A DNA stretch of 64,000 bases from Dermatophagoides farinae (taxonomy: Eukaryota; Arthropoda; Arachnida; Sarcoptiformes; Pyroglyphidae): NCBI RefSeq assembly GCF_024713945.1, contig NW_027461522.1:186001-250000 (forward strand), read 5' to 3'. A program made the translations under genes and the position numbers. Under the pieces are notes generated by a model. The model was not told the DNA's origin and made no database searches. It was given only the letters and a program-made list of their open reading frames with translations. Below, piece by piece: positions 3,685 to 58,576 of the stretch. Position 1 is the first letter of the stretch; each line of letters begins with the position of its first letter.

Positions 3685-3904
3685 ATGAACAGTATTGCAA
3701 TCATTAACGAGAAACGAATTCTCGCAAAATGTATGTTTGATAATATGTAAATTATTTTTAGACGGTTTAGACTTTCCAAGAAAAGAAGCTGGTGGAGTTG
3801 TTTTTCAAGTATCATTTATTTTATATGCTATACGCGTGTACGGGAGAATTTTTCTGATAACATTTAACACGATTATAATTTTTATTGAAGCACTTTTTGG
3901 CTAG
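3685..3904 (+). CDS. Small putative membrane protein, one tiny intron
   Basis: Joining exon 3685-3730 to exon 3762-3904 gives a 62-aa protein starting MNSIAIINEKRILAKYGLDF and ending in hydrophobic residues IIIFIEALFG. The 31-nt intron at 3731-3761 has a GTATGT donor and a TTATTTTTAG acceptor, exactly the form of the other introns in this window, and splicing keeps the frame. The C-terminal half is rich in Ile, Phe, Leu and Val and could be a membrane anchor. I do not recognise the family. The next gene (TAF5) starts about 110 bp downstream on the same strand. The support is the intron form plus the open frame only; a chance ORF of this length in AT-rich DNA is possible. Confidence 0.45.
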
Positions 3905-4016
3905 TTAAAACTACACATAAAAATTTAGTTGCAAGCGCTCATCAATAAAAAATCAGAATCTCATATTAGGAAAACAACATAGTTTTTATAGATCAAAATA
4001 GTCGTTTAAATTTCAA

Positions 4017-7000
4017 ATGAGCTACAATAACAACGGACAGATTGGCCCAAATAAACCGGGGAACTACAACCAGCAACGATATCTCCCACAACAAAACCCA
4101 AACCTTAATGAAATGCCGAGAAGCATCAACAATCATCCTGAGGCGCATCAGCATATGATGCAGCAACAAATGATGACGAATAACATGCACATTCACATGA
4201 TGGATAAAAACAAATCAGGAATGAGTTATCCCTATGTCCTGCATGACGGGCTAATGCCAAATGCGGTTAAAAAGCAAATGTACTACGGGCATCAGCCTCA
4301 AATGTCATATCACAAACCGGACGAAAATTTCTCTCAGTCCAATGATCCAAGAATCTACATGAAAAACCATCCCAACTCTAACTGGAACAAGTCGTCAGAA
4401 ATGATCAACGCTGGTCAGCGCTATAACCAAACCACCCCCATGTTAAACGGCATGACGGACAACGGTAATATCAACTCACGACCCATTAAAATGATGCCGA
4501 AAAATCCGAATTTGATGCCGTACGTTCCAAAAAATCATGAAAGTCTATCTCAGCAACCGAAAAACTTCAACATGGAAGGAGACATGAACTGGGATAAAAA
4601 CATGTACAACCAGGTTTATATGCAACCTAAACAAAATGAATTTGTAAAAGTCCGGGAGAAGTTTTATCCGTACCAGCAAAACGGGATATCTTTTATGCAC
4701 GAAACCAAGCCAAACAATATCAACTATGAATCACGCCCCATTGCAAACGCAAACATGATGAACGCGCTTTCCTACAAACAAAATAATTCAACTAACTTAC
4801 TGGAAAAGCAAAGGCTCTATGGCGATATGCACGACAAAAAACCGATGCTGCATTCAGGCTTGCATTCAATGAATAATGTACAAAAACCTGCTCACATGAA
4901 TATGCCTAATGCTAACATGGCCAGCTATAAATCCTACAACGACGGTCAAAATCTTGCTATGGCCAACAAACCTAGATTTTATCCTCAACAACATTTTCCA
5001 ATATTAAAACAAATGAACCAGCCTCAAGCGTATCCCATGAATCGAGAACAGTATCGCATTCAGTACAAAAAAAAAAATGATAAAGAACAATCTTTCGAAT
5101 CTGTTCAATTAGATCAGAAATCAGTTCAATACATCGAAACTCAGACCGATTTTAATTCGATTCAAAAACCCAGTCAACAATACCAAAACACCGATGAAAT
5201 GAACACGTTAGAACAGAGGGAACAGTTACCAAATGCGTCAGCAAAACCTCAAAAAGACCATTCCTTACATAAACCCGATTATTCTGAAAGAATTATCGAC
5301 ACTGCAAGTAAAACTCTACCTTCCAACTCTGAATCGCTTCGCACGAAAACTGACTTAAATAACTACTCTATCGACATGAGTGCCAATTCGAGAAGAAGCC
5401 AAAAAAGCCCAGGCAATGAATTCGAACAATTAGAGATGAACAAGTCTCAAAAAATAAAAGAAAATGTATTGACTGATGCTGCAAGCAACTACAACAAAGA
5501 GAAAGCTTCAGAAGCAGACATCATGGATACGAAGTCGCGTGACAAAAATTTTTTTGCAAAACCTGTTGATCATGTAGAAACTGAAATATTAAGCAAGATC
5601 TCCGAAGCAGATCAAATAAGAGTACTTTGGAATACCTATGTCGAATTCAGAAAGTTCGTCTATCAATCGTTTTTCATGTCACCAGGCATGCATGAAACGC
5701 TATTTATTCTCTTTATTGAAATTTGGGTTCGACTCGTGAACAAAGACACTCAACAAGCCGTTTCTTTTTTAAACACATATGCCGAGGAACATAAAGCCAA
5801 TCATCATTTAGAAATTGAGAAACTCAAAATCATAAAGAGTAAGGAATATTTGAAGAACAACAAGTTCGTAAATTCTTTGTTGAGCGGCACCAAGTATTTA
5901 TTATTTCTGGAAAACGAAGAAAAGAAAATGCTCTCTATCAAGCTAGTCAACGAGAATGAAAATCTTTTACTTAGTCTTCTTCAAAATCGAATGATTTTTC
6001 TGCCTTTTAACAACACTGAATCTGAAAAATGTGTGGCGAAGCTTTGCAACAATTTGAGCCAGCTAGGGATATGTAAAAGCGGTAATGGATTAATTTCGTC
6101 GCCTAACCTGGCTATCTTATGTGGAATTCACTCGTACCTACCTAATTTCCCTGCGATAAAACACAACGATATTCTGGAATTTGAACCTAAATGCATTTGC
6201 TTTCCGAAAAACTTGTACTCAATTTACACTTTACCGTTTAACAGCCTGAACAGTCCATCAGTCAAGTGGAGAATAGATCAATACTACAAAAATAAATATT
6301 GGAATCAACTACGCCGAAACGAAGTTAGTCGTTCAAACCTGCCAAATATCATGCAGCTTAATCTCAAAATAAGACATAAACTTGAAAGCTTCAGCAATTC
6401 GTTTAAATGTGAGTTGAACGCCGATCACAACAAAGTAGCCGTGACTAATTCTTCTAGCGGCATTGTATCCATCATTAATTTTAAAAACACGGTTTTCTCT
6501 CGAATTTTAAATAATTATCACGAGGCAAACAAGGAAATATTTTTATCTAATGACTCTGAGCAAGTCTTATCTGATTTATCACAATACAATTTTTCAAATA
6601 CTAGCGACCTGTTCAAACATAACTGTCATGCTATGCCCATCACAGGCTTCAAATTTTTATCGTCTTTTCAAACCGGTGGTCATTTAAACATAGCTTTATC
6701 TGCGTCGTTGGACAGCACAATTAAAGTTTGGGAATTGGACACAATGTCGACTGTACACCAATTTTCGGGAGAATCCCCGGTATTGTCTCTCGATGTAGAT
6801 GAGTTCGGATTTCAATTCGTTTCTAGTCATATTGCTAAAGTTGCGCTGCTATGGAACATGAACGCAGATAAACCTATTAGAGCGTTTTTAGGACATCCTT
6901 TTAGCGTCGACAAATGTTCTTTTCATCCTAACAGTGTTCTTGTTTCTACTTTGTCGAGTGAAGAAAAGAGAGTTCGCTTTTGGGATCCCCGAATCGCCAA

Positions 7001-13075: not shown

Positions 13076-13343
13076 GCAAACCTAATTACTTTGTTTAATG
13101 AACCAAGCTTTATTGATGATAATTAATCATATTTTAACAAGATTGAAGAAAGTATGAATTTTCCCAATTTATTGTGTACTGGGTCAATAATCATTTAAAA
13201 AGTTAGTTTAGCAAATAATGCGTGGTTTTAATTGATTCATCACCTTTATTAATTGTGGATTTGCTCCTTTGTACATTTTATAGCTGTTTAAAATTTTTTG
13301 ATTAGATAAAGATAAATAGTTTCAAGTAAATTTGTATAAGAAA

Positions 13344-15827
13344 ATGGTAGAGAAAAGTGTTAAAACAGCAGTTGAAGAAATAGAAAAAACCTACTATGAT
13401 GGTAAAGGGAACTCGAACTTCACAGAAATCAAAACTAAAACTGGGGAAAGTAATGTCGTAGAAGAGAAACCTATAAAGACTTCCACCAATGTGCAAACCC
13501 AAGAAGTAGAAAAACCCACGCCTCAAAAAACATATTCGATAGAAAAGAAGATATCGAACAATAAAACTTCAGGTTCTGATAACATTAAAGTTGAAACGAG
13601 ATATGACTATGAGCGCGATAGAACTGCTGCAGAACCGGTTTATAAAAATGACGAACACCATACCACAGAAAAATCAAACTCCATCCAAGGCATTTATAAC
13701 AATATTAAAAAAAAGGTTTCAGACTTCATCAGTGGAGACCCCTCAACACCTAACACTCATCACACTCAAAAAAACAATCCAAATGCTGACCGAGGACGTC
13801 ATGGTATAAATGAAACGTGTACTAGTACTCACATTCCCGGCTCATCAATGTATTCAGTACAATCTAAAACTAATAACCCATTAGGAGTAGTTCGAGCCAA
13901 GGGAACTAGTGGTTATAACCCAACCTTTATTATGCATGGTGAAAAGAGACAAAATGAATCACATGCCATGGGTACTCAAGCAGTCAACTATAACTATATT
14001 TCTGACTTGGACGGAGACAATACTAGATCTCGAAAATTATTGGGTGATTACGTGTCAAATGCCAAAACACAATATGATTTCCACGCGAAAAACCACAACG
14101 GCAGTCACTATTCTAAAACACCACATAACGAGTCAGGTCTAACTGAAACATTTAACCCAGCCTATCAGAAAATATCAGCTAACCAGTATGGTACGGGATA
14201 CAATAAATCACAATTCGCCTCAAACGCAAAACAAGAAACAAACAACAATGGATGTGAATACACTTATACTTGTAAAACCCAGTGCGAATCGAATGCTAAG
14301 CAAAACAACAAATTAGGTGATATTGCGTACAAGGCAAAAACCCAAGTTGAATCTCAGGCTACTCAAAACCATGGTGGCATATATGATCCAAGAAAGGCAT
14401 TTGCATTCCATAGTAAACGTATGAGTAACATGCCTGACGACACTAAAACTCAAGTAGAATCTCACGCAACCCACGCAGCTAACAAATTAGGAAACATGGC
14501 CAGTAATGCTAAAGACCAAGCAGAATCTCACGCAACCCACGCAGCTAACAAATTAGGAAACATGGCCAGTAATGCTAAAGACCAAGTAGAATCTCACGCA
14601 ACCCACGCAGCTAACAAATTAGGTAACATGGCCAGTAATGCTAAAGACCAAGTAGAATCTCATGCAACCCACGCAGCTAACAAATTAGGTAATATGGCAA
14701 GCAACGCTAAAGACCAAGCAGAATTCCACGCAACCCACGCAGCTAACAAATTAGGAAACATGGCCAGTAATGCTAAAGACCAAGTAGAATCTCACGCAAC
14801 CCACGCAGCTAACAAATTAGGTAATATGGCAAGCAACGCTAAAGACCAAGCAGAATTCCACGCAACCCACGCAGCTAACAAATTAGGAAACATGGTCAGT
14901 AATGCTAAAGACCAAGTAGAATCTCACGCAACCCACGCAGCTAACAAATTAGGAAACATGGCCAGTAATGCTAAAGACCAAGTAGAATCTCACGCAACCC
15001 ACGCAGCTAACAAATTAGGAAACATGGCCAGTAATGCTAAAGACCAAGTAGAATCTCACGCAACCCACGCTGCTGACAAATTAGGTAATATGGCAAGCAA
15101 TGCTAAAGACCAAGTAGAATCTCACGCAACTCACGCTGCTGACAAATTAGGTAACATGGCAAGCAATGCTAAAGATCGAATAAAACATGGAGCTAAAAAA
15201 CTAGGAAACTTTGCAAATGAAGTCAAAGATCAAGTAGAATCTCATGCAACTCACGCAGCTAACAAACTAGGTAACATGGCCAATAATGCTAAAGATCAAA
15301 TCGAATCAGGAGCAAAAAAAGCCGGAAATAAACTATCTGAAATGCTACAACCATCAAAAACGCAGTTCGAAACGCACGCTAAAGGAAAAGCTAAAAAAGT
15401 AGTTGAAAAACAAGCTAGAAACAAAGTAACAAAAAACAAAACAGCCGATCACGGCGACTCATCAAAGAAACAAATGGAAACCAACGCTAAAAATGATGGC
15501 AAAAATTTACAAAACGTAATCTCACCTTCTAAGAAACAACACGAAGTGGCTGCAAAAAGTATCGCCAATAACAACATCAACAATTTCGCTTCAAAAGCTA
15601 AGCAGCAATTAGACTCAAATGCTAAACAAGTTAAGAGCGCAGCTTCCAATTTTGCTTCAAAAGCCAAGCAACAAATTGACTCAAACGCTAAACAAGTTAA
15701 GAATACAGCATCTAAGCTCGGAAATGCAGTTGGAGACGCAATGAATTCTATGAAACACCAAATAGAAGCCGGAGCAAAGAAGGCAGGAACTGAAATCCGA
15801 AATATGTTCAACTCAACGAAAAAATAA
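13344..15827 (+). CDS. LEA-like repeat protein
   Basis: This 827-aa hydrophilic protein starts at the ATG at 13344 (MVEKSVKTAVEEIEKTYYDG); the frame is open a little upstream but without an ATG. Its core is eleven tandem 22-residue units of the form ANKLGNMASNAKDQVESHAT plus HA, with diverged copies before and after (KTQCESNAKQ, KQQLDSNAKQ, HQIEAGAKKAG). Twenty-two is twice the 11-residue period of group 3 LEA proteins, and the composition (Ala, Lys, Asn, His, Glu/Gln; almost no Cys or Trp) fits that class. LEA proteins are disordered when hydrated, become helical on drying and protect cells; LEA-related proteins are known from Toxoplasma oocysts. A role in an environmental stage here is inference. 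There is no signal peptide. An apolipoprotein-like amphipathic helix protein is the alternative. Confidence 0.7.
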   Translation: MVEKSVKTAVEEIEKTYYDGKGNSNFTEIKTKTGESNVVEEKPIKTSTNVQTQEVEKPTPQKTYSIEKKISNNKTSGSDNIKVETRYDYERDRTAAEPVYKNDEHHTTEKSNSIQGIYNNIKKKVSDFISGDPSTPNTHHTQKNNPNADRGRHGINETCTSTHIPGSSMYSVQSKTNNPLGVVRAKGTSGYNPTFIMHGEKRQNESHAMGTQAVNYNYISDLDGDNTRSRKLLGDYVSNAKTQYDFHAKNHNGSHYSKTPHNESGLTETFNPAYQKISANQYGTGYNKSQFASNAKQETNNNGCEYTYTCKTQCESNAKQNNKLGDIAYKAKTQVESQATQNHGGIYDPRKAFAFHSKRMSNMPDDTKTQVESHATHAANKLGNMASNAKDQAESHATHAANKLGNMASNAKDQVESHATHAANKLGNMASNAKDQVESHATHAANKLGNMASNAKDQAEFHATHAANKLGNMASNAKDQVESHATHAANKLGNMASNAKDQAEFHATHAANKLGNMVSNAKDQVESHATHAANKLGNMASNAKDQVESHATHAANKLGNMASNAKDQVESHATHAADKLGNMASNAKDQVESHATHAADKLGNMASNAKDRIKHGAKKLGNFANEVKDQVESHATHAANKLGNMANNAKDQIESGAKKAGNKLSEMLQPSKTQFETHAKGKAKKVVEKQARNKVTKNKTADHGDSSKKQMETNAKNDGKNLQNVISPSKKQHEVAAKSIANNNINNFASKAKQQLDSNAKQVKSAASNFASKAKQQIDSNAKQVKNTASKLGNAVGDAMNSMKHQIEAGAKKAGTEIRNMFNSTKK
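14451..15176 (+). repeat. Eleven tandem 66-bp repeats (coding)
   Basis: Eleven consecutive 66-bp units fit this interval exactly (11 x 66 = 726) and encode the 22-residue motif of the LEA-like protein. Units differ by a few bases, such as GAATCT/GAATTC giving ES/EF and AAC/GAC giving N/D. Some neighbouring pairs of units share the same variants, pointing to expansion by unequal exchange. A twelfth, separated copy lies at about 15228-15293. Confidence 0.9.
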
Positions 15828-17447: not shown

Positions 17448-18370
17448 ATGAATTATATTGAAGTGAGTTACGTTCAGATAGTACATTTTATAGTTAGGAA
17501 ACAGTAGCCTGCTTGAGAAAAACATTTTATCTGCACATTCAGCCGTAGAATCTAATGAAAATAGGTTTGATGATCCTGAATTGATTTCAACTAGTGACTT
17601 AATTAGCTATGCTTATAACAAAATCAGTAAGGACCCTTCCAGCACGTTAGACGATTTTAAAGCCAATGCGGCTACTGACAATTCTGTCGGTCAAAACTTA
17701 AAAGCGTTACTGGAGAGATCCGTTTTAATGCTTCATTTATATTCGATAAATAATAAAAAAAAAGACATTGAGATTTCACAACTTAGCAGTCGTATGATTG
17801 AGCTGCAGTCCTTACTTACAACGTGTTTGGATAAAAATAAAAGTTTGGTAGATTTGCTCAGCGAACTAGATGAACAATACAAAAACGTTGCTGCTGACTA
17901 TGATAGTTTTAAAGCAAAAAATCAAGCTGCACAAACAGCGCTTCAACTAGAGGTTAATAAGTTAAAATCCGAGAATCTTAAATTGGAAGAAAGTTTGTTG
18001 AAAACATTGAGTAGCCAAGAAAAAAAAATCAGTTTAAGCGAACAAAAGAAAGAGCTCGATCAAAAAAATCTTGAAATCAAAAACTTGAAAAACAAAGTCG
18101 AACAGCTAAACAATTATATAAATAGTTTGTTGAACAACAAGTCACAGTAAGTTTTCATCTGATAAATGTTTTTCAGCTCTCACCTGAAATGTGATTTCAG
18201 TTCTACTTCTGAAAATTTAATAGAGATTCCATCTGATCAATTAGTGTTAGAACTCAATCGCAAGTCCGAAGCGTTGCAAAACGACGTCATTAAATTGAAA
18301 AAGGTACGTTTCATCGTTTATTATTTTTTAGGTTATCATTGACTTAGTTAAAAACGCTAAATCTTGTTGA
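17448..18370 (+). CDS. Coiled-coil protein with three tiny introns
   Basis: The central exon is open from 17494 but contains no usable ATG at its start. Splicing from an upstream ATG solves this. Exons are 17448-17462 (MNYIE), 17494-18146, 18177-18303 and 18332-18370, with introns of 31, 30 and 28 nt whose donors are GTGAGT, GTAAGT and GTACGT and whose acceptors end TTTTATAG, TTTTTCAG and TTTTTTAG. All junctions keep the frame and give a 277-aa protein ending VIIDLVKNAKSC. Residues from about 110 to 215 form a long coiled coil rich in Lys, Glu, Leu and Ser. A helical segment (LKALLERSVLMLHLYSINNK) precedes it. I recognise no family; a tethering, centrosomal or Mediator-type subunit would all fit. 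Confidence 0.7.
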
Positions 18371-21940: not shown

Positions 21941-21942
21941 AT

Positions 21943-23064
21943 CTAGTCCAATCTTGATGCAATGCTCAGTCTTTGTTTCGCAGAAACGATATCTTTTGAG
22001 ACGTTAATATCGTCTTCGACAACCCATTGTATACTAATAACGGTTTTTGCGTTATTTAACGCTAATTCATAGCCGTCCATTGCGGCAAAAGCGAATTCGC
22101 AGGCAGCTCGATAACAGTAGCGAATGAAAACTAAAGATTTGTTTCTCGAAATTTTAATGCTTTCAACGGGTCCAAACAGACAGAACTTAGCTAAGATAAT
22201 TTCTTCCATTGATTTATATCCTTTGAGTTGTGCTTCTATCGGAAAATCAATCAAAACTATGCTTCGGCACGAAGAATTGATCGAGCCAACGCCAATTTTA
22301 TAATGATGGTTGCCTTTAGGCCGTTCACGTCCAAAGATATCCATTTTGTACGGTATTAAATCGTTGTCGTAAAGGGTGGGGAGGCGGTGGTGAAAATCAC
22401 ATTCTTTGCCTTTAAAGCATTGACCTTTGGCAAAATACAGGCAAAAAGGTTTGAAAATGTTTTTAAACCTCGTAGCTCTTGTAATGCCTGAGTGCTCGAA
22501 CACGTTCAAACTGAATTCCGCCTTAGCTGCTCTCCGAATTTTCCGAGAGTTTACAAACGCGTAGCTGATGTTGTAGCCGTACCAAATATTGTACTCGCCT
22601 TGGATTGACGGGGTTTTCACTGCAAGTTTATCTTGCTGTACCGGAGCTTTGCGTCCCAATTGGCTCTCGTCAGGTGGGAAGTCGTGGTAAATGAACTTTT
22701 TGAAGTGCGCTGGAAGCGATCGTAAAGATTCTGGAGGCGTTAAATGCGGCAGCTTGAGCAGCCACTTGGCGTATGCAATCTCTTTTGTGTCACACGTATT
22801 GTTGTCACTGTCAGATTTTTGTTTTTCGTTGGTTGCGGGCTCAACTTGCTGATCGTCTAATTTCTCTTTTTCGAATACATCTGATTTTGAGTTTTTTTTG
22901 ATCAAGTTTTTCAATTTTTTTTTTTCCAGTTTTTTGACTTCGGTTTTCTCTGCTCTGAAGACGTTTTCGTCTGCAGCGCTGGGTGAATATTCTTCGATTT
23001 CAAAATTTATACTCCTCGTTTGCGCTTTAACTGTTGGAAGTAACGTTTCAGTATTAGGATCCAT
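21943..23064 (-). CDS. CWC2: Cwc2/RBM22-like spliceosome protein
   Basis: The 373-aa protein contains the Cwc2 torus module: YNIWYGYN, then a CCCH zinc finger with C-x7-C-x5-C-x3-H spacing (CLYFAKGQCFKGKECDFHH), then HRLPTLYDNDLIPYKMDIFG and RERPKG. An RRM follows (IVLIDFPIEA ... SLVFIRYCYRAACEFAFAAM). Cwc2 is an NTC-related factor that contacts U6 snRNA and helps form the catalytic core. The first 110 residues are charged and probably disordered. Its start codon lies 71 bp from the start codon of the divergent dCMP deaminase. Together with the Prp5-like gene it shows an active spliceosome, consistent with the tiny introns. Confidence 0.87.
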   Translation of the reverse strand: MDPNTETLLPTVKAQTRSINFEIEEYSPSAADENVFRAEKTEVKKLEKKKLKNLIKKNSKSDVFEKEKLDDQQVEPATNEKQKSDSDNNTCDTKEIAYAKWLLKLPHLTPPESLRSLPAHFKKFIYHDFPPDESQLGRKAPVQQDKLAVKTPSIQGEYNIWYGYNISYAFVNSRKIRRAAKAEFSLNVFEHSGITRATRFKNIFKPFCLYFAKGQCFKGKECDFHHRLPTLYDNDLIPYKMDIFGRERPKGNHHYKIGVGSINSSCRSIVLIDFPIEAQLKGYKSMEEIILAKFCLFGPVESIKISRNKSLVFIRYCYRAACEFAFAAMDGYELALNNAKTVISIQWVVEDDINVSKDIVSAKQRLSIASRLD

Positions 23065-23135: not shown

Positions 23136-24072
23136 ATGTTCCTGATTTTAATTGGTTCACACGTAAAAATTATTGCTCAACGTCTGTCTTCGTGGGACTA
23201 CCAGTTTGTCCCTGCGAATGTGTTTAAACGTGACCACATCTTGCCTGGAAGAGGAAATTACTTCAGCATTATCGACACTTATGAAACATTTCTGATGTGT
23301 TCAGACAATATGCGTCACACATCCTTGAGCATTGTAGTGAATGCTATTTTGGACGATTCCGGTGTTTTCGAAAACAAGAGTTTAGAAGACATCTGCCGTC
23401 AGATGCAGGTATGTTTGAGTTCCTAAATAAAAAAGTTCTGTAGGAAACGCAAAAAATTATCAGCAATTTGCAAAATAAATGTTTATGCCTGACGAGATTT
23501 GACTTCACTCAGCAAGAATTTGAGAAATATTTGAGCAAATTCACAATTCCCTCGTGGCATAACTATTTTTTGGAGCTTTCCTACGCCGTTGCATTGCGCA
23601 GTACTTGCATTTCGCGTCGAGTGGGTTCTGTAATTGTCAAAGACAGAAAGATCATTTCGACGGGTTACAATGGAACACCGCCCGGCATGTTGAATTGCAA
23701 CAGGCACGGTTGCAAGGTGTGTGACAACCCCATAAAACCCACTGGCAGTAAGTACAATAGCAACTGCATCTGTGTTCATTCCGAGGTTAACGCCATCATG
23801 CAGTCTCCCAGAAAAAACCTAGAAGGCGCGTCTATTTATGTAACGAACAAGCCGTGCAATGCCTGTTTTTTGACTATTATCAGGTCTGGAATCAAGCACG
23901 TCTACTACTCAGAAGAATACAACACGGATTACGGAGATTTACAAGCCGCTTTGGACAGTAAGTTTACTAGACTATATTATTTATAGATAATTTAATTGAA
24001 ATGACGCAGATCAAGTATTTGCCTAATATGTTGTTGAACGAAGAAGAGGTAAAAAATCATAAGTTAATTTGA
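23136..24072 (+). CDS. DCD1: Deoxycytidylate (dCMP) deaminase, three exons
   Basis: Exons 23136-23408, 23444-23957 and 23987-24072 join in frame across introns of 35 nt (GTATGT ... CTGTAG) and 29 nt (GTAAGT ... TTATAG) to give 290 aa. The deaminase domain has the zinc motif HSEVNAI (catalytic Glu), PCNACFLTIIRSG for the paired cysteines, and RRVGSVIVKDRKIISTGYNG. It makes dUMP from dCMP for thymidylate synthesis. The N-terminal ~90 residues (MFLILIGSHVKI ...) resemble the extra kinase-like domain of yeast Dcd1, but the P-loop is not intact. The second intron removes an alternative unspliced end and adds a tail ending KNHKLI. It belongs to a tandem duplication whose second copy is broken. Confidence 0.87.
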
Positions 24073-24201: not shown

Positions 24202-24495
24202 ATGGGGTTTTCTAGTTTGTGCTGTTGCGGAAAAAGAAAGAAGTCTGGATTGAATTCGAAGAACGAGACATGTTCTACGTCCGAATTAACCCAAAATAAT
24301 ATAACTTACTTTGGCGACTACTCTAATGGAGTTTATACTGTAAGCGACGTAGCCGACGAAACCGACAAAAGCAACGCAATCAACGAAGACAACGTTTTCA
24401 AAGAGACAGCGCAGGAAGATAAGAACGAAATAACAGATGAACAGGCTGAACCATCGCGCTTGGACAACCGCCCTCAGTCTTCGGAAGTTCTGTAG
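24202..24495 (+). pseudogene. Truncated copy of the Cys-cluster protein
   Basis: From the ATG at 24202 this copy reads MGFSSLCCCGKRKKSG for 97 aa, closely parallel to the full gene at 25268. It is cut off by the duplication junction after NRPQSSE and ends two codons later (VL, then TAG) inside deaminase intron sequence. The C-terminal half of the family is therefore missing. It keeps an open frame and its own upstream region, so a short acylated protein might still be made. Confidence 0.75.
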
Positions 24496-25124
24496 GAAAC
24501 GCAAAAAATTATCAGCAATTTGTAAAATAAATGTTTATGCCTGACGAGATTTGACTTCACTCAGCAAGAGTTTGAGAAATATCTGAGCAAATTCACAATT
24601 CCCTCGTGACACAACTATTTTTTGGAGCTTTCTTACGTCGTTGCATTGCGCAGTACTTGCATTTCGCGTCGAGTGGGTTCTGTAATTGTCAAAGACAGAA
24701 AGATCATTTCGACGGGTTACAATGGAACACCGCCCGGCATGTTGAATTGCAACAGGCACGGTTGCAAGGTGTGTGACAACCCCATAAAACCCACTGGCAG
24801 TAAGTACAATAGCAACTGCATCTGTGTTCATTCCGAGGTTAACGCCATCATGCAGTCTCCCAGAAAAAACCTAGAAGGCGCGTCTATTTATGTAACGAAC
24901 AAGCCGTGCAATGCCTGTTTTTTGACTATTATCAGGTCTGGAATCAAGCACGTCTACTACTCAGAAGAATACAACACGGATTACGGAGATTTACAAGCCG
25001 CTTTGGACAGTAAGTTTACTAGACTACATTATTTATAGATAATTTAATTGAAATAACGCAGATCAAGTATTTGCCTAATATGTTGTTAAACGACGAAGAA
25101 GTAAAAAATCATAAGTTAATTTGA
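24487..25124 (+). pseudogene. Duplicated dCMP deaminase fragment, broken
   Basis: This copy has exons 2 and 3 of the deaminase but no exon 1. In exon 2 the TGG codon of the PSWHNY motif has become TGA (at about 24607-24609). The rest of the catalytic domain is intact and the second intron is kept (about 25010-25038). With no start codon before GTPPGM and an early stop, it cannot make the normal enzyme. Bases 24639-25026 are identical to the functional copy. Confidence 0.85.
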
Positions 25125-25267
25125 ACGTCTGAAATTTATTTACGTAGATTTATTATTTTTATCGCTAATTAATAATAGAATTATAAAATTTTCAATCATA
25201 ATAAAAATTTTTTTTTCAAAAATTTTTTTTCCAAACTTTTATTATTTGAAATTTATATTAATTGAAC

Positions 25268-34230: not shown

Positions 34231-35761
34231 TTAACGTGCGTAGAATAATCTCAAACTGCGCAGCGCAACACAAGATGATTCAATTAATAAAACAAAATTA
34301 GTTTCATATGCTTCTTGCAATGTTTCATAATTAGCTTCGTTGTATGCGTATGACTCAGCCATTTGTACTTGTATTCGTTTTAAAATAGCATCTGCAATTA
34401 TTCCAAGATTTTTTTCGGTGTTTATAAGAGTGTAAACTTCATTTAGATCCATAGTGTTGATCATCTTATGTGAACAGTAGGGCGCAAGGCAAAGAATTAC
34501 TCGTATATCAAATACGATGCTTGGAGGAAATTGAAGGTGGTTTTTTAAATCTTCTACTTTAGTTTCCCAGACCTCTCGATCAAGCACGTCGATAAATTCG
34601 TACTCAGGATCTGTTTTTGGCAAAAAATTATTAATTGATAAGTATCCTTGTGAGATAGACCTTCTTAGAGATAGTTGAAGCCACATGTGCTTAAATGTTT
34701 TACTAGGCTTTTCCACGTGAACGTACATTATGTTAATTGATAAATTCAAATGCTCTAACAAAGCAGATAGAAATTTTGATCCGAGTCCTTTTCGCTGATA
34801 CGGCGGCATTATCATGTATTGAGATATTCTCAATTTCTCTGACGGCAGAGAATAAAACTGGTAAGCTGAACAAAATCCCAAGATTTCTACGGGCTTTCCA
34901 TAATCAAATAACAAGTCGTAAGTTAGTTCTACTTGAGTATCGCGTTTTAAAAACGAGAATAGTTCTGACGATTTAGAAGAGTTATTAATGTTGGAAGGAA
35001 CAGCAAGTTTTTTACTAGCCTCAAAATCTTTAAACGTAGTGGTGAACGCGCTTGGGTCTTCCAAGAAACGGATCAAAAGGAAGAAACGCCAGCGCCAGCA
35101 AGGTTTGATCTCTGTCAAATCAGAAATGAAAAACCTCATCATCCACTCAATTCGACGCTGAACAACAAAAAATTTGTTTTGTGGGTCTAACAACATGTTA
35201 GTTCCTATTTCGCAGACATAACAGACGTTCTCTCCGGATGCATCGTCGAAGTTGGTTTTTATAGAACCGATAACAGCTCCAGGTATATTGAAGTATGAAA
35301 GAATTTGACGCGCTTTCTGATCAGCGGGAGACTCACTTTTAGCACTCAAATCTTTGCTGCCGTTGATAGCTTGGTTTTCACACTTATTCGTGTAAAGTTC
35401 AAAGCTGTGCAAAAGCATTCTGAACACTTCTTCACAGAGGAACTCGCCAGGAAAGTTGAAAAGCTTTTCAACACGCTTGACTAAGCTTGAAACGTTTGAA
35501 TACTGATCATTTCCCATAGGAAACGGCGGTTGAGCAAAAATATGCATGTCAAACGTAGTTGGGATGTAGCAAATATTAATTCTGAAATCTGCCGGCCATT
35601 GGACGGAAACGTTTGGTTTTATGTATTGGTGAAAATACGTTGCCGGATACCCTGGTGAATTTATTACCTAAAAAGTTACGAGTATCGCCACTTACTGAAT
35701 TAAAACTTTCAATATCTTTACATGGGTGAAAGCGAATATGTTTTGCCAAATTGTTAGGCAT
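34231..35761 (-). CDS. HAT1: Type B histone acetyltransferase HAT1, with a hidden first exon
   Basis: Exon 1 is 35761-35696 (MPNNLAKHIRFHPCKDIESF ... NS) and exon 2 is 35667-34231; the 28-nt intron at 35695-35668 has a GTAAGT donor and a CTTTTTAG acceptor. The spliced protein is 500 aa. Joining the exons recovers the HAT1 N-terminal domain (FHPCKDIESFNS, then PGYPATYFHQYIKP and RINICYIPTTFD), which an internal ATG at 35547 would lose. The catalytic GNAT core is LRISQYMIMPPYQRKGLGSK, with the Q/R-x-x-G-x-G acetyl-CoA loop. HAT1 acetylates newly made histone H4 before nuclear import and deposition. Confidence 0.85.
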
Positions 35762-41271: not shown

Positions 41272-41654
41272 TTTTTCGTCATTTAAGATTTTTCTGATAT
41301 TAAAATTTTTATCTGATATTTTTTAGTTCCAAAACTAATTATTTTTATTCAATATGAAAATCCAAAAAAATAAATAAATAAACTAAAAATTATTTATTAA
41401 GTGCTCTACTAATGACTGCAAATAGTCGGTGTAATTCAGTAATTTAATTGTTAGGAAATTTTTTGTTATTTGAGAATATAAAACTACAGTTATCAAGCGT
41501 ACTAAGCTTTATTAATATATAAAACCTAGCTTTTTATGGTTTTGGGTAACTCAAAGCCAAATCATTTTGTTTCTAAAACCAAAACTTATAAGAACAAATG
41601 TATTTCCGATAAAATACCAAAGGCGAAAAAAATGCTGTTCAAGTTATCCTAGTG
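41272..41654. other. Intergenic, nothing recognised
   Basis: About 380 bp of AT-rich DNA between the zinc-finger-like locus and the SSSSDDE repeat gene. I see no ORF, RNA gene or repeat. Confidence 0.4.
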
Positions 41655-44600
41655 ATGGTTCAACATCAACGAAAAAAAATACGAGTTAATTGTTCTTCAT
41701 CATCAGATGATGATGAACCACCAAGTGCTTTTTCTGATAACCGGAGAAATAAGAATGATATAACAAATTCGCATTTACGCAAACTAGGTGAAAATACACA
41801 GAAAATTGATGATAATCTAAATGTTGCAAATTCACGATTAGATTTTATCAAAACAGGTTCACACACAAAAAAAAATCAAATTAGCAACAATCAAGCGTCA
41901 ACTGATAATGATGGCCAAGTAATAGATACGTTCAAAGGTACAGATAAAACAACTTCAAAACATTTATTTAAACAAAACGATAATACTATAAACTTTAACA
42001 CATCATCAAGTAATGAAGATTTAATTTTACCAGTTACTAAAATTAAACTACAGAAAACTACCACTGTTCAGACCGAGTCTACTACTAAAAACAAAAAACA
42101 AAAGCTCGATGGAAAAACCACTTTTGATGTTTCGAACAACTCTAATTCTTTGTCAAGTGACGACGAAATAACTATATCTATCAAAAGTAGTTCAGCAAGA
42201 CTTTCTTACGATGACGAACCAATTAAACCCGTAAAAAGAATTGAAGCTAAATCTTCACTCCACATTGATTCTTCATCAAGTGATGATGAACTTGTTAAAG
42301 CTGTACAAAAAACTGTTTTTTAAACCTTCAGTTCTTGATAACTCCTCTTCAAGTGATGATGAACCAGTTAAACCTGTACAAAGAATTGCAGCTAAACCTT
42401 CTGTTCACAATGATTCTTCTTCAAGTGATGATGAACCTGTTAAACCCGTACAAAGAACTATTACTAAACGTTCAATTCATGATGATTCTTCTTCAAGTGA
42501 TGATGAACCCGTTAAAGCTGTGCAAAAAACTGTTATTAAACCTTCTGTCCAGAATGATTCTCCTTCAAGTGATGATGAACCCGTTAAACCTGTACAAAGA
42601 ACTGTTATTAAACCGTCAGTCCACGGTGATTCTTCGTCTAGTGATGATGAACCAGTTAAACCTGTACAAAGAATTGCAGCTAAACCTTCTGTTCACAATG
42701 ATTCTTCTTCAAGTGATGATGAACCTGTTAAACCCGTACAAAGAACTATTACTAAACGTTCAATTCATGATGATTCTTCTTCAAGTGATGATGAACCAGT
42801 TAAACCTGTACAAAGAACTGTTATTAAACCTTCAGTTCATGATGATTCTTCTTCAAGTGATGATGAACCAGTTAAACGTGTACAAAGAACTGCAGCTAAA
42901 TCTTCTGTTCACAATGATTCTTCTTCAAGTGATGATGAACCCGTTAAACCTGTACAAAAAACCATTACTAAACATTTAGTTCATGATAATTCTTCTTCAA
43001 GTGATGATGAATCAGTTAAACCTGTACAAAGAACTGTTATTAAACCTTCTGTTCACAATGATTCATCGTCTAGTGATGATGAACCCGTTAAACCTGTACA
43101 AAGAACTGTTATTAAACCTTCAGTTCATGATGATTCTTCGTCCAGTGATGAACCAGTTAAACCTGTACAAAGAACTGTTATTAAACATTTAGTTCATGAT
43201 GATTCTTCTTCAAGTGATGATGAACCAGTTAAACCTGTACAAAGAACAGTTATTAAACCTTCAGTTCATGATGATTCTTCGTCCAGTGATGATGGACCCG
43301 TTAAACCTGTACAAAGAACTGTTACTAAACATTTAGTTCATGATGATTCTTCTTCAGGTGATGATGAACCAGTTAAACCTGTGCAAAGAACTGTTATTAA
43401 ACCTTCTGTTCAGAATGATTTTTCTTCAAGTGATGATGAACCAGTTAAGCCTGTGCAACCAACTATTTCTAAATCGTCACTCCACGTTGATTATTCATCA
43501 AGTGATGATGAACTTGTTAAAGCTGTACAAAAAACTGTTTTTAAACCTTCAGTTCATGATAATTCCTCTTCAAGTGATGATGAACCAGTTAAACCTGTAC
43601 AAAGAACTGTTATTAAACCTTCTGTTCACAATGATTCTTCTTCAAGTGATGATGAACCCGTTAAACCTGTACAAATAACTATTACTAAACATTTAGTTCA
43701 TGATAATTCTTCTTCAAGTGATGATGAACCAGTTAAACCTGTACAAAGAACTGTTACTAAACATTTAGTTCGTGATGATTCTTCTTCAAGTGATGATGAA
43801 CCCGTTAAACCTATACAAAGAACTGTTATTAAACATTTAGTTCACAATGATTCTTCGTCCAGTGATGATGAACCAGTTTAAACCTGTACAAAGAATTATT
43901 ACTAAACCCTCAGTTCACGATGATTCTTCTTCGAGCGATGATGAAACCTGTTAATCCTGTACAAAGAACTGTTATTAAACATTTAGTTCACAATGATTCT
44001 TCGTCCAGTGATGATGAACCTGTTAAACCTGTACAAAGAATTGCAACTAAACCTTCTGTTCACAATGATTCTTCTTCGAGCGATGATGAACCTGTTAAGC
44101 CTGTACAAAGAACTGTTATTAAACCTTCAGTTCGGAATGATTCTTCGTCCAGTGATGATGAATCAGTTAAACCTGTACAAAGAACTGTTATTAAACCTTC
44201 AATTCACAATGATTCTTCGTCCAGTGATGATGAACCTGTTAAACCTGTACAAAGAATTGCAGCTAAATCTTCTGTTCAGAATAATTCTTCTTCAAGTGAT
44301 GATGAACCAGTTAAAACGTGTACAAAGAACTGTTACTAAACGTTCAGTTCATGATGATTCTTCTTCACGTGATGATGAACCCGTTAAAGCTGTACAAAAA
44401 ACTGTTATTAAACCTTCTGTCCAGAATGATTCTCCTTCAAGTGATGATGAACCCGTTAAACCTGTACAAAGAACTGTTATTAAACCTTCAGTTCGGAATG
44501 ATAATTCCTCTTCAAGTGATGATGAACCCGTTAAACCTGTACAAAGAATTGTTATTAAACCTTCAGTTCGGAATGATTCTTCGTCCAGTGATGATGAATC

Positions 44601-45626
44601 AGTTAAACCTGTACAAAGAACTGCTATTAAACCTTCAGTTCATGATAATTCCTGTTCAAGTGATGATGAACCCGTTAAACCTGTACAAAGAACTGTTATT
44701 AAACCTTCTGTTCACAATGATTCACCTTCAAGTGACGATGAAATAGTTTTACCGAAGGGGAAGAAATTTATAGAAGTTAATGATTTTTTCGATTTTTCTT
44801 CTAGCGACGACAAAAAGAAAAATGCCAAAGATGTCAACGCTTCTATACCTAATAGCAGAAGAAAAACAAAAAAATTAATGGTTAATGATACATCAACGGA
44901 AAAAAGCAGATAACTCCCCAAGGTTTGATGATTCTTCATCTGAAGAAGAACTTTTAAGTGCATTTGAATATCAAACTTCAGCTTCAAATCTCATCGACTC
45001 TTTATCAAATAAAAGTGATATAAGTAATGTTGCTGTCTTGTCACGTAAAAGTAAAAAAATTCGAATTTCAAACAATGCAATCAATTTATCATCAAGTTCC
45101 GACGAAGAATTCAGAAATTTGAACAACAATGAAGTTTTGGATAAAAATCAAAACCAGCGTGTTTCAACAGAATTAGAGTTAAACGAAGAAAAAAAAAAAA
45201 TGCTTAGATAATGATGTTAAAAAAGACAATCAAAAGTCGGTTACATCAAAAAAAATTAACTATTCGACTCAGATTTCAGACAATCAAATATCAGAACAAA
45301 ATTCCAATAATGCAGCGCATAAGCACCACGATCAATACGGACTCTCCCTTTCATCACCTAAAATGTCTAATTGCCAACTTAAAACGAATAACCACGGAAT
45401 ACACGCATCAAGCGATGTGCATGTAAGCAAAAAAGTATGTATTCGTGAGAATCAACGAACTTTTGACACAGAGTCAAGTAACGATCAATTTGAAACTCCA
45501 TTATCATTTCATACCCCTTTACACGACACTGCCAGCGAAACTAGTTTCACCTGTGAACAAGACGAAAATAGAGTGAAGTTAGTCGAAGAATGCAATTTGG
45601 ACGACTTCAGTTCCGAATCTGATTGA
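41655..45626 (+). CDS. Acidic-serine repeat protein, Nopp140-like layout; frame broken six times
   Basis: The ATG at 41655 opens a protein (MVQHQRKKIRVNCSSSSDDD) with no signal peptide. Its core is about 35 copies of a 24-residue unit in which an acidic cluster (SSSSDDEPVK) alternates with a basic one (PVQRTVIKPSVHDD). Alternating CK2-type acidic serine clusters and Lys/Pro-rich basic blocks is the layout of nucleolar Nopp140/treacle; the C-terminus here does not match the Nopp140 tail, so this is similarity of architecture only. Single-base shifts occur at about 42316, 43868, 43939, 44311, 44893 and 45190; each is an extra A or T compared with sister repeats or with the frame that follows. 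Bridged, the protein is about 1300 aa and ends NLDDFSSESD. Confidence 0.65.
42250..44742 (+). repeat. About 35 tandem 72-bp repeats (coding)
   Basis: Units of 72 bp (one of 69, one of 75) encode the SSSSDDEPVK plus PVQRTVIKPS motif. Variants recur in blocks, for example an IAAKPS-type unit followed by an ITKRS-type unit appears twice, which shows that multi-unit segments were copied. Individual units differ in codons TCA/TCT/TCG for the serine run. Confidence 0.9.
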
Positions 45627-46563: not shown

Positions 46564-47233
46564 TTAAATGCTTGTTAGTTTGTACCCACAACAGATGACT
46601 GGCTTCTGTTCGGTATCTTTCAGCTGAAAAGATTCTCGATAAAAGTTGTCCCGCATACTGTTATCGTTAAATTTTTCGTTTTTTTGTTTTTCTTCTATTG
46701 ACTCTGCCATAGCGAGCAAAGTATCTGACACATTTTGTTTCGAAATCGCACTGGTTTCAAAAAACAACAGCCCGTTTTCATTTGCATACTGTTGGGCTTC
46801 TTCGTATGTAACTTTTCGTAAATTTTCTCCGTCAACAAGATCTATTTTGTTTCCAATAAGTATGATCACGATTTCTGCTGGCGCAGATTGTCGCAGATCT
46901 GACAGCCACCGAGGAATATTCATGTAGCTTTGTCGCTCAGTGATGTCGTACACCAAAAAACAACCTAAAGCCCGGCGGAAATGGCTTTTTGTGATAGATC
47001 TAAAGCGTTCCTGCCCAGCGGTATCCCATATATAGAAAGACTTTTGTTTGCCCGACTTGGTATTTACGACGATCGTTTCAAACTCGATTCCAATAGTAGC
47101 TGAAGGCTTGTCAGGCAATTTTTTTTTTGCAAAAGACATAACCAAGTGTGTTTTTCCAACGCTGGCGTCTCCCAGAATAAGCACTGCAAACTCTTAATCA
47201 GGCAAACTTACGCTTGTTCATTGTGGCGTTCAT
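46564..47233 (-). CDS. Rab-family small GTPase, one tiny intron
   Basis: Exon 1 is 47233-47212 (MNATMNK) and exon 2 is 47183-46564, with a 28-nt intron (GTAAGT ... TTTGCAG) at 47211-47184. The joined 213-aa protein begins MNATMNKLLILGDASVGKTH and has all G motifs: GDASVGKT, IGIEFE (effector), WDTAGQERF, GNKIDL and ETSA. It should act in vesicle traffic. The C-terminus reads ICCGYKLTSI as written, an odd position for the prenylated cysteines; a possible 31-nt intron at 46585-46555 would end the protein at ICCG instead. The exact Rab class is not clear. Confidence 0.85.
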
Positions 47234-53249: not shown

Positions 53250-54072
53250 ATGTATAACTCTCAGTACGTTAACAAACAGCCATTATTTGTCTAGAAACGA
53301 ATACGATCGAGGTGTATCAACGTTTTCTCCAGAAGGACGATTGTACCAAGTCGAATATGCTTTGAACGCTGTCAATGTAAGTGAATGACTGATTATTTTT
53401 TAGCACGGGTCTACCATCATCGGTATTAAAACCAAGGAAGGAATAGTGTTAGCTAGTGAAAAAGCCATCAAAGACAAACTAATGGAAGACACTGCAGATT
53501 TGAAAAAAATCAGCAAAATAGACGAACATGTAGCGTGTGCCATTAGCGGTATTATCGCTGACTCGCATGTTTTGATTCGCCACGCCCGTTTCCAAGCCAA
53601 GAACCACTGGTTCTCTTTCAACGAACTTATGCCCGTTAAAAGCATTGTTAACTGCATTTCCGACTTGTCTCTTCAGTTCAGCGGAATTCGAACTGAAGAA
53701 AAACAAATGTCGAGACCGTTTGGAGTTTCAATGCTCGTCGGCGGTGTCACGGACAGAGAAGGCCCAGTTTTGGTTTCCACTGATCCAAGCGGCACTATTA
53801 GAAGCTGGAACGCTGCTGCTTTTGGCGCCGGCCACGAATGTGCCACGAACGAGTTGGAAAAACAATACAAAGCCGACATGACGCTCAAGGATGCATGTCT
53901 ACTAGCATTGCAAATTCTGCGACAGGTCATGGAACACAAAATCGCAGACTCCTCTGTTCATCTGTGCATCATTCCTACTAGCACCAAACAAGTTACTTTC
54001 ATCGAAGGTAAAGAACTTCAGGATTTAATTGACGAGCTACCAGCAAACACTGATTGTATCAGAATTGATTGA
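53250..54072 (+). CDS. PSMA5: 20S proteasome subunit alpha5
   Basis: Exons 53250-53263, 53295-53376 and 53404-54072 join across introns of 31 nt (GTACGT ... TGTCTAG) and 27 nt (GTAAGT ... TTTTTAG) to give 254 aa. The first exon supplies MYNSQ ahead of [20 protein letters not shown], the proteasome alpha signature. Downstream, [43 protein letters not shown] and [15 protein letters not shown] match alpha5 rather than other alphas. Alpha subunits form the outer gated rings of the 20S core. Confidence 0.93.
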
Positions 54073-55568: not shown

Positions 55569-55919
55569 TCAAAATGTTTAAACTAATAATTGACAAAATA
55601 TTTCTTTGTCAAAAAAGAATGACTAGATACAAAAGTAAAAAAATCTTGTGCGGCGAACACTAATTATAAATTTAATTTCTACTAAACAAAGAAAATATAT
55701 GCATCTTTAGTATATTGTCGACACGAAAAATTGAAAATTAAACATACTCTATTGTATTTAACTAGGTAGAAATGTTTTCTATTTTTTGGGTCAGGAAAGA
55801 AATCTGATAACAACGAACTCTATTCGTTGAAAAAAAAAATTTTCCAATCTAGAAACTGAATCAGACGGATTAGAAATAGTAGAAGGTGAAACTCTTATAA
55901 TCATTGTTAGTTGTTGAAT
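55569..55919. other. Divergent intergenic region
   Basis: About 350 bp between the PPAT start and the GalNAc-transferase start. It is A/T-rich with no recognised motif. Confidence 0.4.
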
Positions 55920-57767
55920 ATGTATCATAAACTTTGTTTGTTATTTTCATTTGTGTTAGCAAACTCTTATTTTGAGAACAAAAACTACTACCCTGAAATC
56001 AAAGGATCAATGAATAGAGTTCCCCAAATTAATCTAGATCATTTCGGGTCAGAGATTAAAGACAAATTTCAATTACTGTACGGAGTAAATCAAAAAAGAA
56101 TAAAATTTGACCTAAACAGAAAAATTGACCACCCCGTAGGGTCTGAAAAATGGTTCAATTCTCTTATTGTCAGCCCAAACCAAACTCCAGAGGAAATGCA
56201 CGGTAAGATAGGGTTCCAAATGGACGGTCAGCCCTTGTACAAACCCAAGCCAACACCACCACCACTTAAAAAAACTGGTATTGAGCGAAAAAAAGAATTG
56301 CAAGTCGGTGGTTTCTACCAAAAACTAAGTGATTCTTTGCCATTAAGTCGACTTCCAATAGATAAAAGAACTGAAATTTGTAAAAAAAAACAGTTTGATT
56401 ATTCAAAATTGCCACCGGTTTCGATTATCATTACCTACTATAATGAGCCTTTTAGCACTTTGATGAGAACAGTACACAGCATTCTTAACAACACTCCTCC
56501 TGAGTTGATAACAGAAATTTTACTCGTTGATGACAATAGTAATTACGTTCTTGGCCCGACTTTTGATCAATCAGCACCAGAAAACTTAGATTATGAGGCT
56601 TTGATCAAATTTTACATCCAGCATCTTCCCAAAGTTAAGCTGGCAAGACTTCCCCACCGTAGAGGATTAGTTCAGGCTAGACTCGCAGGTATTCGACAAG
56701 CTATAGCCGATGTAATTGTTATAGTTGATAGTCACATGGAAATGAACGTAAGTTGGTTAGAACATATGCTCGAGATTTTGGTTGAAAAACCTAAATCAAT
56801 CGTTGTCCCTCAAATTCCATCCGTAGACGCTGTCACTTTTGATTATAACACGAACACGGGAATAGGATGTCAAGTATCATTCAAATGGGGAATTGTGGAA
56901 AGAAGCAGTTTAACAGAATACAAGTCAACCGAACCAGTACGAAGCCCTGTTATTGCGGGAGGTATTTTCACAGTTTATAAAGATCACTTTTTTGACATGG
57001 GAGGATATGATGAAAAATTCACCATGTGGGGTGCTGAAAATGTTGAAATTGGATTGCGTCACTGGATGTGTGGCAGTGCTATATACTGCGCCCCATGCTC
57101 CCTAACGTATCACATTTACAGAACAGAAGGAATTGGATACACAAGTCCAGACAAAGCTTTACTGTATAACAAACTTAGAACAGCCAAGAATTGGCTTGAC
57201 GATTATAAAAAAATTTCTGAGTATTTCATTGGAGATACAACGGACCTTGTACAAGATACCAAAGAAATTGAAGAGTTTAAGAAAAACAAGCAGTGTAAAC
57301 CATTTACCTGGTTTTTAACTAATATCGTCCAAGCCGATGATATGGACACTGTTTTTACCGATTTAGTTGTGCACAATATTCAGCCAAAAGATCTTATTGG
57401 TAGTGTTGAAATCCGCTCAACCGGAGATTGTTTAGATACTATGAGTAGTGCAAGAGAAGACAGTCAAGTAGGTTTTTATTGGTGTCATGGCTTGAAAGGC
57501 ACGCAAAACTGGGTCCTTGTAAGGAGTAAAGATTCAACGCAGTTTTACATAGTCCCGTCGTCAGAAGAAAACTTATGTTTGAATGAAAACGCCAAGTTTA
57601 CAAAATGTCTTAAAACTGCCAATAACATTATATGGCAGCTAGACGGATACAAGTTGAAAAACACATACACAGGTTTATGTTTAAACAAAAACGAAGATAA
57701 TAAGATATCTATGGTTGATTGTGACGCAGCTTTAGAATACAATATCACTAGTCTTGTTAATTATTAA
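55920..57767 (+). CDS. Polypeptide N-acetylgalactosaminyltransferase
   Basis: The ATG at 55920 gives 615 aa with an N-terminal signal or membrane-anchor segment (MYHKLCLLFSFVLANSYF). The GT27 catalytic domain has VSIIITYYNEPFSTLMRTVH, the metal-binding DxH motif as DSHMEM (about 272), GGIFTVYKDHFFDMGGYDEK and WGAENVEIGLRHWMCGS (about 374). A C-terminal ricin-type lectin domain follows at about 490-615 (DCLDTM, GFYWCHG, GLCLNKN). It starts mucin-type O-glycans on Ser/Thr in the Golgi. Apicomplexans such as Toxoplasma and Cryptosporidium carry this family, which modifies cyst- and surface-type glycoproteins. Confidence 0.93.
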   Translation: MYHKLCLLFSFVLANSYFENKNYYPEIKGSMNRVPQINLDHFGSEIKDKFQLLYGVNQKRIKFDLNRKIDHPVGSEKWFNSLIVSPNQTPEEMHGKIGFQMDGQPLYKPKPTPPPLKKTGIERKKELQVGGFYQKLSDSLPLSRLPIDKRTEICKKKQFDYSKLPPVSIIITYYNEPFSTLMRTVHSILNNTPPELITEILLVDDNSNYVLGPTFDQSAPENLDYEALIKFYIQHLPKVKLARLPHRRGLVQARLAGIRQAIADVIVIVDSHMEMNVSWLEHMLEILVEKPKSIVVPQIPSVDAVTFDYNTNTGIGCQVSFKWGIVERSSLTEYKSTEPVRSPVIAGGIFTVYKDHFFDMGGYDEKFTMWGAENVEIGLRHWMCGSAIYCAPCSLTYHIYRTEGIGYTSPDKALLYNKLRTAKNWLDDYKKISEYFIGDTTDLVQDTKEIEEFKKNKQCKPFTWFLTNIVQADDMDTVFTDLVVHNIQPKDLIGSVEIRSTGDCLDTMSSAREDSQVGFYWCHGLKGTQNWVLVRSKDSTQFYIVPSSEENLCLNENAKFTKCLKTANNIIWQLDGYKLKNTYTGLCLNKNEDNKISMVDCDAALEYNITSLVNY

Positions 57768-57791
57768 AACAGCTTAACTAGATATTTTCAT

Positions 57792-58576
57792 TTACGATTT
57801 TAAGTTTTTTCTTTTGCAAATATCATCTTCAACAATTTGTAGTTTACTTAAAAATTCTTTTTTTTGTCTTGCTAAGTCAAATTTCTTAATTCCCTGAAAA
57901 GCAATAGGGGTGTTAAATAAATTTGAGACTTTATCGTCATTGTTTGAGTCATTTTTAGGCATTCTTAAAGCATAATTAGAAAATTCGACTCTGCAGATAA
58001 TTTTATTTTAAATGAAACTTACTGTATGGGATCGTTCGGATCTAATTTTTTGTTTTCGTGCACAGCTTTAAAAATTGCCTCAGCTATTATCTGGTTACTA
58101 AACGTTGCTATGCATACTTTGTCATTTTTAGGCGTCGAATCAAATTTTATTTTTATAGGAGATTCGAGATGGAGCGTTTTATGGAAATAAGAATAAAACT
58201 GTAACTCATTCCAAGTATTCGGTATATTGTAAAATATAAGAGTGGAGTAGTTTTCTAGATTGTTTGCGGTTTGTAAAGCTTGAGCTGGGTCTCGAAAAAC
58301 GACTTTGATAATGACTCCATTGAGAAGTTTTCCTGCAATAGTAGACGCAATGTTAAACGATTCAACCGTTTTTAACATTATTTTGGCATATCTAATTTGT
58401 GTATTTGGATAGCTAAAAATACTTATTACAATTACTTACTAGTGAATAAAAATTTTTTCTATGAAGTCCTTGCAAGTTCGATGCTCATCGACAAGTAAGG
58501 TGTTGAGTAAGCTGACAATCGAATCTTCATCTACAGACAAGCTAACGTATTTTATGTAAAAGACATTAATACTCAT
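57792..58576 (-). CDS. RRM protein with two tiny introns
   Basis: Exons 58576-58440, 58412-58023 and 57990-57792 join across introns of 27 nt (GTAAGT ... TATTTTTAG) and 32 nt (GTAAGT ... TCTGCAG). The result is 241 aa beginning MSINVFYIKYVSLSVDEDSI. Two degenerate RRM-like units follow: the first ends RYAKIMLKTVESFNIAST ... GVIIKVVF, and the second has STLIFYNIPNTWNELQFYSY and KVCIATFSNQIIAEAIFKAV, with the last strand (IQVEFSNYAL) restored by splicing. The tail is basic. The family is not identified. Its stop lies 24 bp from that of the GalNAc-transferase. Confidence 0.72.

Follow-up and report, generated by a model that had tools for sequence, protein, structure and literature searches.

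The 12 intervals of 27 to 35 nt that interrupt coding frames in one stretch of the Dermatophagoides farinae genome assembly, together with a 13th found here, are very probably (about 93%) U2-type spliceosomal introns of an apicomplexan-like parasite or symbiont, 3.59 Mb of which was left in the assembly. The stretch analyzed, hereafter the window, is 64,000 nt long and corresponds to positions 186001 to 250000 of contig C19 in the 62.4-Mb assembly GCA_024713945.1. By the figures in the published accounts, introns of such length are already known from Porospora (PMC9250747), and shorter ones from Babesia microti (PMC5082761). What is new is their source, an unrecognized apicomplexan-like cobiont in a published mite assembly, and this is more interesting than the introns.

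Short introns in the window

All 12 intervals were GT-AG on the strand of the gene that contains them. A first-pass annotation of the window had listed 12 introns of 27 to 35 nt, and its coordinates, lengths and donor counts all matched the sequence (Table 1, in order of position). The donors were GTAAGT (seven introns), GTACGT (two), GTATGT (two) and GTGAGT (one), all of which fit GTRNGT. The introns had been assigned to eight genes, but splicing yields seven open reading frames (ORFs), because the three introns at 17463-18331 share one ORF and the two at 57991-58439 likewise share one. The window genes were read with standard stop codons.

When the introns were read through, the stop began inside the intron or across its start in 9 of the 12. 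In the remaining three, whose lengths are not multiples of 3, it was encountered 36 to 117 nt past the intron start. All three introns with lengths divisible by 3 hold an in-frame stop. The 13th intron was found in a tandem copy of the deaminase gene. For 7 of the 12 joins listed at first pass, the support consists of ORF continuity and splice signals. Ciliate-style excised elements other than introns were also considered as a source of the intervals and were ruled out, as the units are GT-AG and their orientation tracks the gene strand.

Table 1. Intron-bearing and related genes in the window, with the evidence at each join (window coordinates)
Feature	Position	Strand	Evidence
Yos1/IER3IP1-like gene, 2 exons	3637..3904	+	Spliced 78-aa protein; PF08571 at residues 6-78, profile 1-81 of 81, E 2.2e-16
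Intron, 31 nt, Yos1-like gene	3731..3761	+	GTATGT..TAG; join near residue 31, within PF08571 match
Coiled-coil-like protein gene, 4 exons	17448..18370	+	Single ORF over three joins
Intron, 31 nt, coiled-coil-like gene	17463..17493	+	GTGAGT..TAG; ORF continuity only
Intron, 30 nt, coiled-coil-like gene	18147..18176	+	GTAAGT..CAG; read-through gives immediate in-frame stop
Intron, 28 nt, coiled-coil-like gene	18304..18331	+	GTACGT..TAG; ORF continuity only
Cwc2/RBM22-like protein, Torus domain	21943..23064	-	PF16131, E 5.7e-23
dCMP deaminase gene, 3 exons	23136..24072	+	PF00383 in exon 2; PDB 1vq2 and 2w4l
Intron, 35 nt, dCMP deaminase join 1	23409..23443	+	GTATGT..TAG; join outside homology
Intron, 29 nt, dCMP deaminase join 2	23958..23986	+	GTAAGT..TAG; join within 2w4l alignment
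Second deaminase copy, no exon 1 detected	24485..25140 (end approximate)	+	Direct repeat
13th intron, 29 nt, deaminase copy	25010..25038	+	Copy of 23958-23986, 1 of 29 positions changed
HAT1-like acetyltransferase gene, 2 exons	34231..35761	-	PF00583; PDB HAT1 match, E 1.4e-4, residues 299-381
Intron, 28 nt, HAT1-like gene	35668..35695	-	GTAAGT..TAG; ORF continuity only
Rab GTPase gene, 2 exons	46564..47233	-	PF00071; PDB Rab14 and Rab4
Intron, 28 nt, Rab gene	47184..47211	-	GTAAGT..CAG; only 1-2 aligned residues on exon 1 side of join
PSMA5 (20S proteasome alpha-5) gene, 3 exons	53250..54072	+	Spliced protein aligned from Met1, both joins gap-free
Intron, 31 nt, PSMA5	53264..53294	+	GTACGT..TAG; join in alignment
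Intron, 27 nt, PSMA5	53377..53403	+	GTAAGT..TAG; in-frame stop; join in alignment
Gene without assigned family, 3 exons	57798..58576 (ends approximate)	-	Single ORF over two joins
Intron, 32 nt, gene without assigned family	57991..58022	-	GTAAGT..CAG; ORF continuity only
Intron, 27 nt, gene without assigned family	58413..58439	-	GTAAGT..TAG; ORF continuity; in-frame stop spans join

Homology at the splice joins

Nine introns in all had homology at the join: the two in PSMA5, the one in the Yos1-like gene, the second in the deaminase gene, the one in the Rab gene (at the alignment edge only), three in a PSMA6 gene on contig C21 and one in an RPA1-like gene on contig C18. The first-pass annotation had expected PSMA5, HAT1, Rab and dCMP deaminase to regain conserved residues at their joins. 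This was borne out for PSMA5, both of whose joins were free of gaps against 5fmg, which we take to be a Plasmodium structure, and against mammalian alpha-5 chains. For the deaminase, it held at join 2, join 1 lying outside the alignment, and for Rab the agreement amounts to the one or two aligned residues that precede the join. For HAT1 it was unconfirmed, the PDB match lying far from the join; apart from the join, the sequence points weakly to a HAT1-like gene. In the Yos1-like match, about eight profile positions were unmatched, at a location within the match that is not displayed.

The PSMA6 introns measure 29, 31 and 27 nt. None of the three joins was gapped against the Plasmodium chain, and against a second chain a 6-residue gap adjoins join 2. 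In the RPA1-like gene, homology backed one 31-nt intron, whose join falls within the match, about 10 residues from its end.

These joins bear on a rival reading of the breaks in frame, as intron look-alikes produced by indels in sequencing or assembly or by lesions in pseudogenes. The assembly was built from long reads, with a stated quality value of 36 (PMC11074847), and one deaminase copy has no first exon, both of which would suit such an origin. However, a GT-to-AG unit of 27 to 35 nt that contains a T run is not what an indel leaves behind, five joins in PSMA5 and PSMA6 lie within alignments to known proteasome subunits, and the same length class was seen again on other contigs. An origin in indels or lesions is very improbable, and assembly indels in particular were ruled out by the proteasome joins and the recurrence on other contigs. 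The interpretation of the intervals as ultra-short spliceosomal introns is well supported by sequence and homology.

Intron length distribution

Spacings between GTAAGT and YAG in 153 kb of cobiont sequence peaked at 25 to 29 nt, with 23 counts, against 5 to 17 in each of the 20 remaining 5-nt bins between 15 and 119 nt. GTATGT, GTACGT and GTGAGT gave no peak of their own at 25 to 29 nt in this simple distance count of the same 153 kb. Splice-site matrices were built from the 12 first-pass introns, which makes their agreement with the window partly circular, a limit from which the other contigs are exempt. Outside the window, the pairs scored with these matrices at middle thresholds numbered 14 at 25 to 29 nt and 1 to 10 in the other bins; the mite pieces gave 4 in the 25- to 29-nt bin at middle thresholds.

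A gene finder that combined codon usage, the splice matrices and a flat length prior of 15 to 500 nt (middle penalty reported) predicted 42 introns in the window and on other contigs. Twenty-four of them were 25 to 35 nt long (14 of the 21 window predictions and 10 of the 21 from other contigs), and three, all among the 21 outside the window, were 36 to 40 nt long. Six decoys with permuted signals, which were free of the GT-AG restriction, gave 0 to 5 introns at 25 to 35 nt. The 14 predictions in the window comprised the 12 first-pass introns, the 13th and an interval at 46624-46658, which interrupts the reading frame of Rab and is likely a false call. The same 25- to 35-nt class is thus seen again on further contigs of this organism, and the ultra-short class, mostly 27 to 31 nt, is the only intron class above the decoys.

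It is rather unlikely that, beside these introns, longer ones also exist and were overlooked. The gene finder placed 12 of its 42 predictions at 60 nt or longer in addition to the three at 36 to 40 nt, and 28 to 29% of Porospora introns are given as outside the short class (PMC9250747). Against this, the 12 predictions of at least 60 nt compare with 20 to 31 in the six decoys, a rough comparison given that the decoys lacked the GT-AG restriction.

Two organisms in the mite assembly

Contigs C1 to C10 total 58.83 Mb and are mite-like, and contigs C11 to C21, which include the window, total 3.594 Mb. In a test of 29 sampled pieces, with the last 4 kb of the window omitted, 4-mer composition divided the two groups with no overlap, all 12 pieces from C1-C10 falling on one side and all 17 from C11-C21 on the other. 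Housekeeping genes were present on both sides. Manual grouping of 32 profile matches gave 14 proteasome subunit genes on C1-C10 and 11 on C11-C21; Prp8 had one match on each side, on C7 and C14, and 11 of 28 Sm/LSm matches lay on C11-C21. Manual grouping also gave eight genes of the Cpn60/TCP1 family on C14-C21, although a full CCT set is unproven because this family also includes Cpn60. A single organism was ruled out by the doubled proteasome set and the 4-mer separation.

The possibility that C11-C21 are mite DNA, such as a germline-restricted portion of the genome or a recent acquisition, was weighed against these observations. The contigs were deposited as mite, and the assembly paper gives 62.43 Mb as anchored to its 10 pseudochromosomes (PMC11074847). 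However, C11-C21 carry a separate housekeeping set and a separate composition, and AP2 matches occur on these contigs only. Moreover, figures in the same paper give another D. farinae assembly as 58.78 Mb in 10 contigs, and its repeat percentages, as recalculated here, fit about 58.9 Mb (PMC11074847). We consider a mite origin of these contigs very improbable. Microbial sequences are described there as removed by BLAST against microbial RefSeq at an E value of 1e-50 (PMC11074847), so a divergent protist, as in the cobiont reading that we prefer, could survive the removal.

Four of four AP2 domain matches were on C11-C21, three above the curated cut-off and one below, the domain not being exclusive to the phylum. 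A protein with LCCL plus PA14 domains was also found on the cobiont contigs. The cobiont enolase was closest to 3otr, presumably the Toxoplasma enolase, and contains the insert of 3otr that is missing in the next two matches. From these three features the cobiont seems apicomplexan-like, and it is perhaps of gregarine or Cryptosporidium grade. Among the open-access papers listed, none was seen by its title and abstract opening to report an apicomplexan in Dermatophagoides.

The completeness of the cobiont genome is uncertain, as C11-C21 yielded no 18S, U2 or U6. None of five 18S pattern matches lay on these contigs, family and pattern searches of them, in which only the best candidates were scored, gave no U2 or U6 snRNA, and RNA family searches of a further 89 kb of cobiont pieces gave U1 alone at the gathering score. 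Three proteasome subunits were likewise not found on C11-C21 by a family search that scored the best candidates and missed short exons. Such absences are weak evidence, since the searches score best candidates only and miss short exons; nevertheless, the contigs are perhaps incomplete, because 18S must exist yet is missing from them. With the expected Sm/LSm set assumed to be roughly 15 genes, counts of up to 8 of 8 (Cpn60/TCP1), 11 of 14 (proteasome) and 11 of about 15 (Sm/LSm) suggest an estimated completeness of about 80% and a total of 3.6 to 4.5 Mb.

A practical consequence, which may outweigh what the introns offer, is that the reference of a medically important mite appears to hold 3.6 Mb of protist, whose proteins could pass for mite proteins or allergens, and cobiont genes in C11-C21 may have been annotated as mite genes. 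The cobiont may rank among the smallest apicomplexan genomes, is already in 11 contigs and has a host that is kept in laboratories.

Splice signals, U1 snRNA and branch point

A set of 27 putative introns was assembled from the 12 first-pass introns and 15 picked by eye for their signals and ORF; less convincing candidates and the duplicate deaminase intron were set aside. Their median length was 28 nt and their range 27 to 40 nt. The earlier description of acceptors as TAG or CAG after a T-rich run agreed with this set: all 27 ended in YAG, with T at 70 to 93% at positions -7 to -3, a signal on which the candidates were partly chosen. Positions +7, +8, -11 and -12 lay outside the matrix positions. 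T was present at +7 in 19 of 27 and at +8 in 18 of 27, and the background T over all 342 GTRNGT sites was 43% at +7 and 36% at +8. A was present at -12 in 18 of 27 (P of about 0.001, uncorrected) and at -11 in 15 of 27, and there was no single branch-point motif among the 27. In the nine homology-backed introns, A was at -12 in seven, T at +7 in six and T at +8 in five.

A cobiont U1 snRNA was identified at L036:1501-1656 on the minus strand, with a score of 72.8 bits against a family cut-off of 69.5. It carries ACUUACCUG, the complement to the GT donor consensus. Its predicted 5' end is AAACUUACC/AAACUUACCUG, compared with AUACUUACC/AUACUUACCUG in the two mite copies, with A in place of U at position 2. 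The first two A residues of the cobiont U1 could thus pair with T at +7 and +8. A Prp8 domain was found on the cobiont contigs in an open frame of 2341 codons. The first-pass annotation had argued from the narrow lengths to a spliceosome tuned to minimal introns; the short introns stand, but the tuning is conjectural, as the Prp8 and U1 found give no indication of an unusual machine. The U1 5' end could be the sole hint of tuning, coming from one U1 gene barely above the cut-off and a predicted end, and a compact genome alone could be the cause of the narrow length limit.

In the mechanism that we propose, U1 would recognize the extended donor GTAAGTTT, and recognition would be intron-defined. 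A branch adenosine would sit about 11 to 12 nt upstream of the 3' splice site, with a short T run between it and the terminal TAG or CAG. Compaction of the genome may have pushed the introns toward the smallest length that the spliceosome still handles. A broader and more tentative proposal, which we rate at somewhat less than even odds, is that C11-C21 make up the bulk of a nuclear genome of about 3.6 to 4.5 Mb that belongs to an undescribed dust-mite apicomplexan, in which essentially all introns form one ultra-short class, the branch spacing is near -12 and the 5' end of U1 varies in step with the donor, with A at its position 2 matched to T at +7. If this is true, the cobiont genome would be far smaller than the 6.5 Mb of Babesia microti, given as the smallest genome in the phylum as of 2016 (PMC5082761).

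Comparison with known short-intron systems

In the gregarine Porospora cf. gigantea, 71 to 72% of introns are reported at 25 to 30 nt, with a mode of 28 (PMC9250747). The cobiont likewise has a 25- to 30-nt class, with a median of 28 nt, in a compact, gene-dense genome. The two differ in that Porospora introns are described as having a highly conserved A at 6 nt upstream of the acceptor, whereas A in the putative cobiont introns was at -6 in 0 of 27 and at -8 in 11 of 27, with the peak at -12; no Porospora-type branch A at -6 was thus seen in this set. They also differ in composition and size, Porospora being given as 54% GC and about 9 Mb and the cobiont having about 30 to 37% GC in the sampled pieces and 3.6 Mb assembled. 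Babesia microti is similarly an apicomplexan with a compact genome and mostly ultra-short introns, but these are stated to be 18 to 21 nt long (PMC5082761), versus 27 to 31 nt in the cobiont. Among ciliates, the introns of Paramecium and Nyctotherus are described as about 25 nt and those of Stentor as likewise tiny, a near-minimal length as in the cobiont; however, ciliates are another phylum, and the cobiont genes use standard stop codons. The introns would add another lineage to the few with near-minimal introns, and a branch-point position apparently unlike that described for Porospora opens the way to comparative tests of how minimal introns are built.

Other features of the window

Pfam searches gave no match for the spliced coiled-coil-like protein or for the gene at 57798..58576 and assigned no family to the genes at 11287, 17581, 20063, 29250, 30827, 36098, 38555 and 47398. 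The tRNA and RNA family searches of the window found none. The Cwc2/RBM22-like protein presumably has a spliceosomal role.

The deaminase copies form a direct repeat with a spacing of 1052 nt and 98% agreement over 300 nt. It belongs to a tandem repeat of about 1.05 to 1.09 kb at 23433-25576, 88 to 98% alike, which includes the deaminase copy that has no detected exon 1; as detected, the repeat starts within the first deaminase intron. At 13332-15827, a long repetitive protein with the repeat HATHAANKLGNMASNAKDQVES, which we take to be LEA-like, matched the Pfam family Apolipoprotein below its cut-off and is perhaps linked to desiccation tolerance. A highly repetitive Ser/Asp-rich protein (SSSSDDEPVKPVQ) at 41652-44913 is spread over several frames, perhaps through an assembly error in the repeat. 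The region at 55911-57767 encodes a polypeptide GalNAc-transferase-like enzyme with a ricin-type lectin domain.
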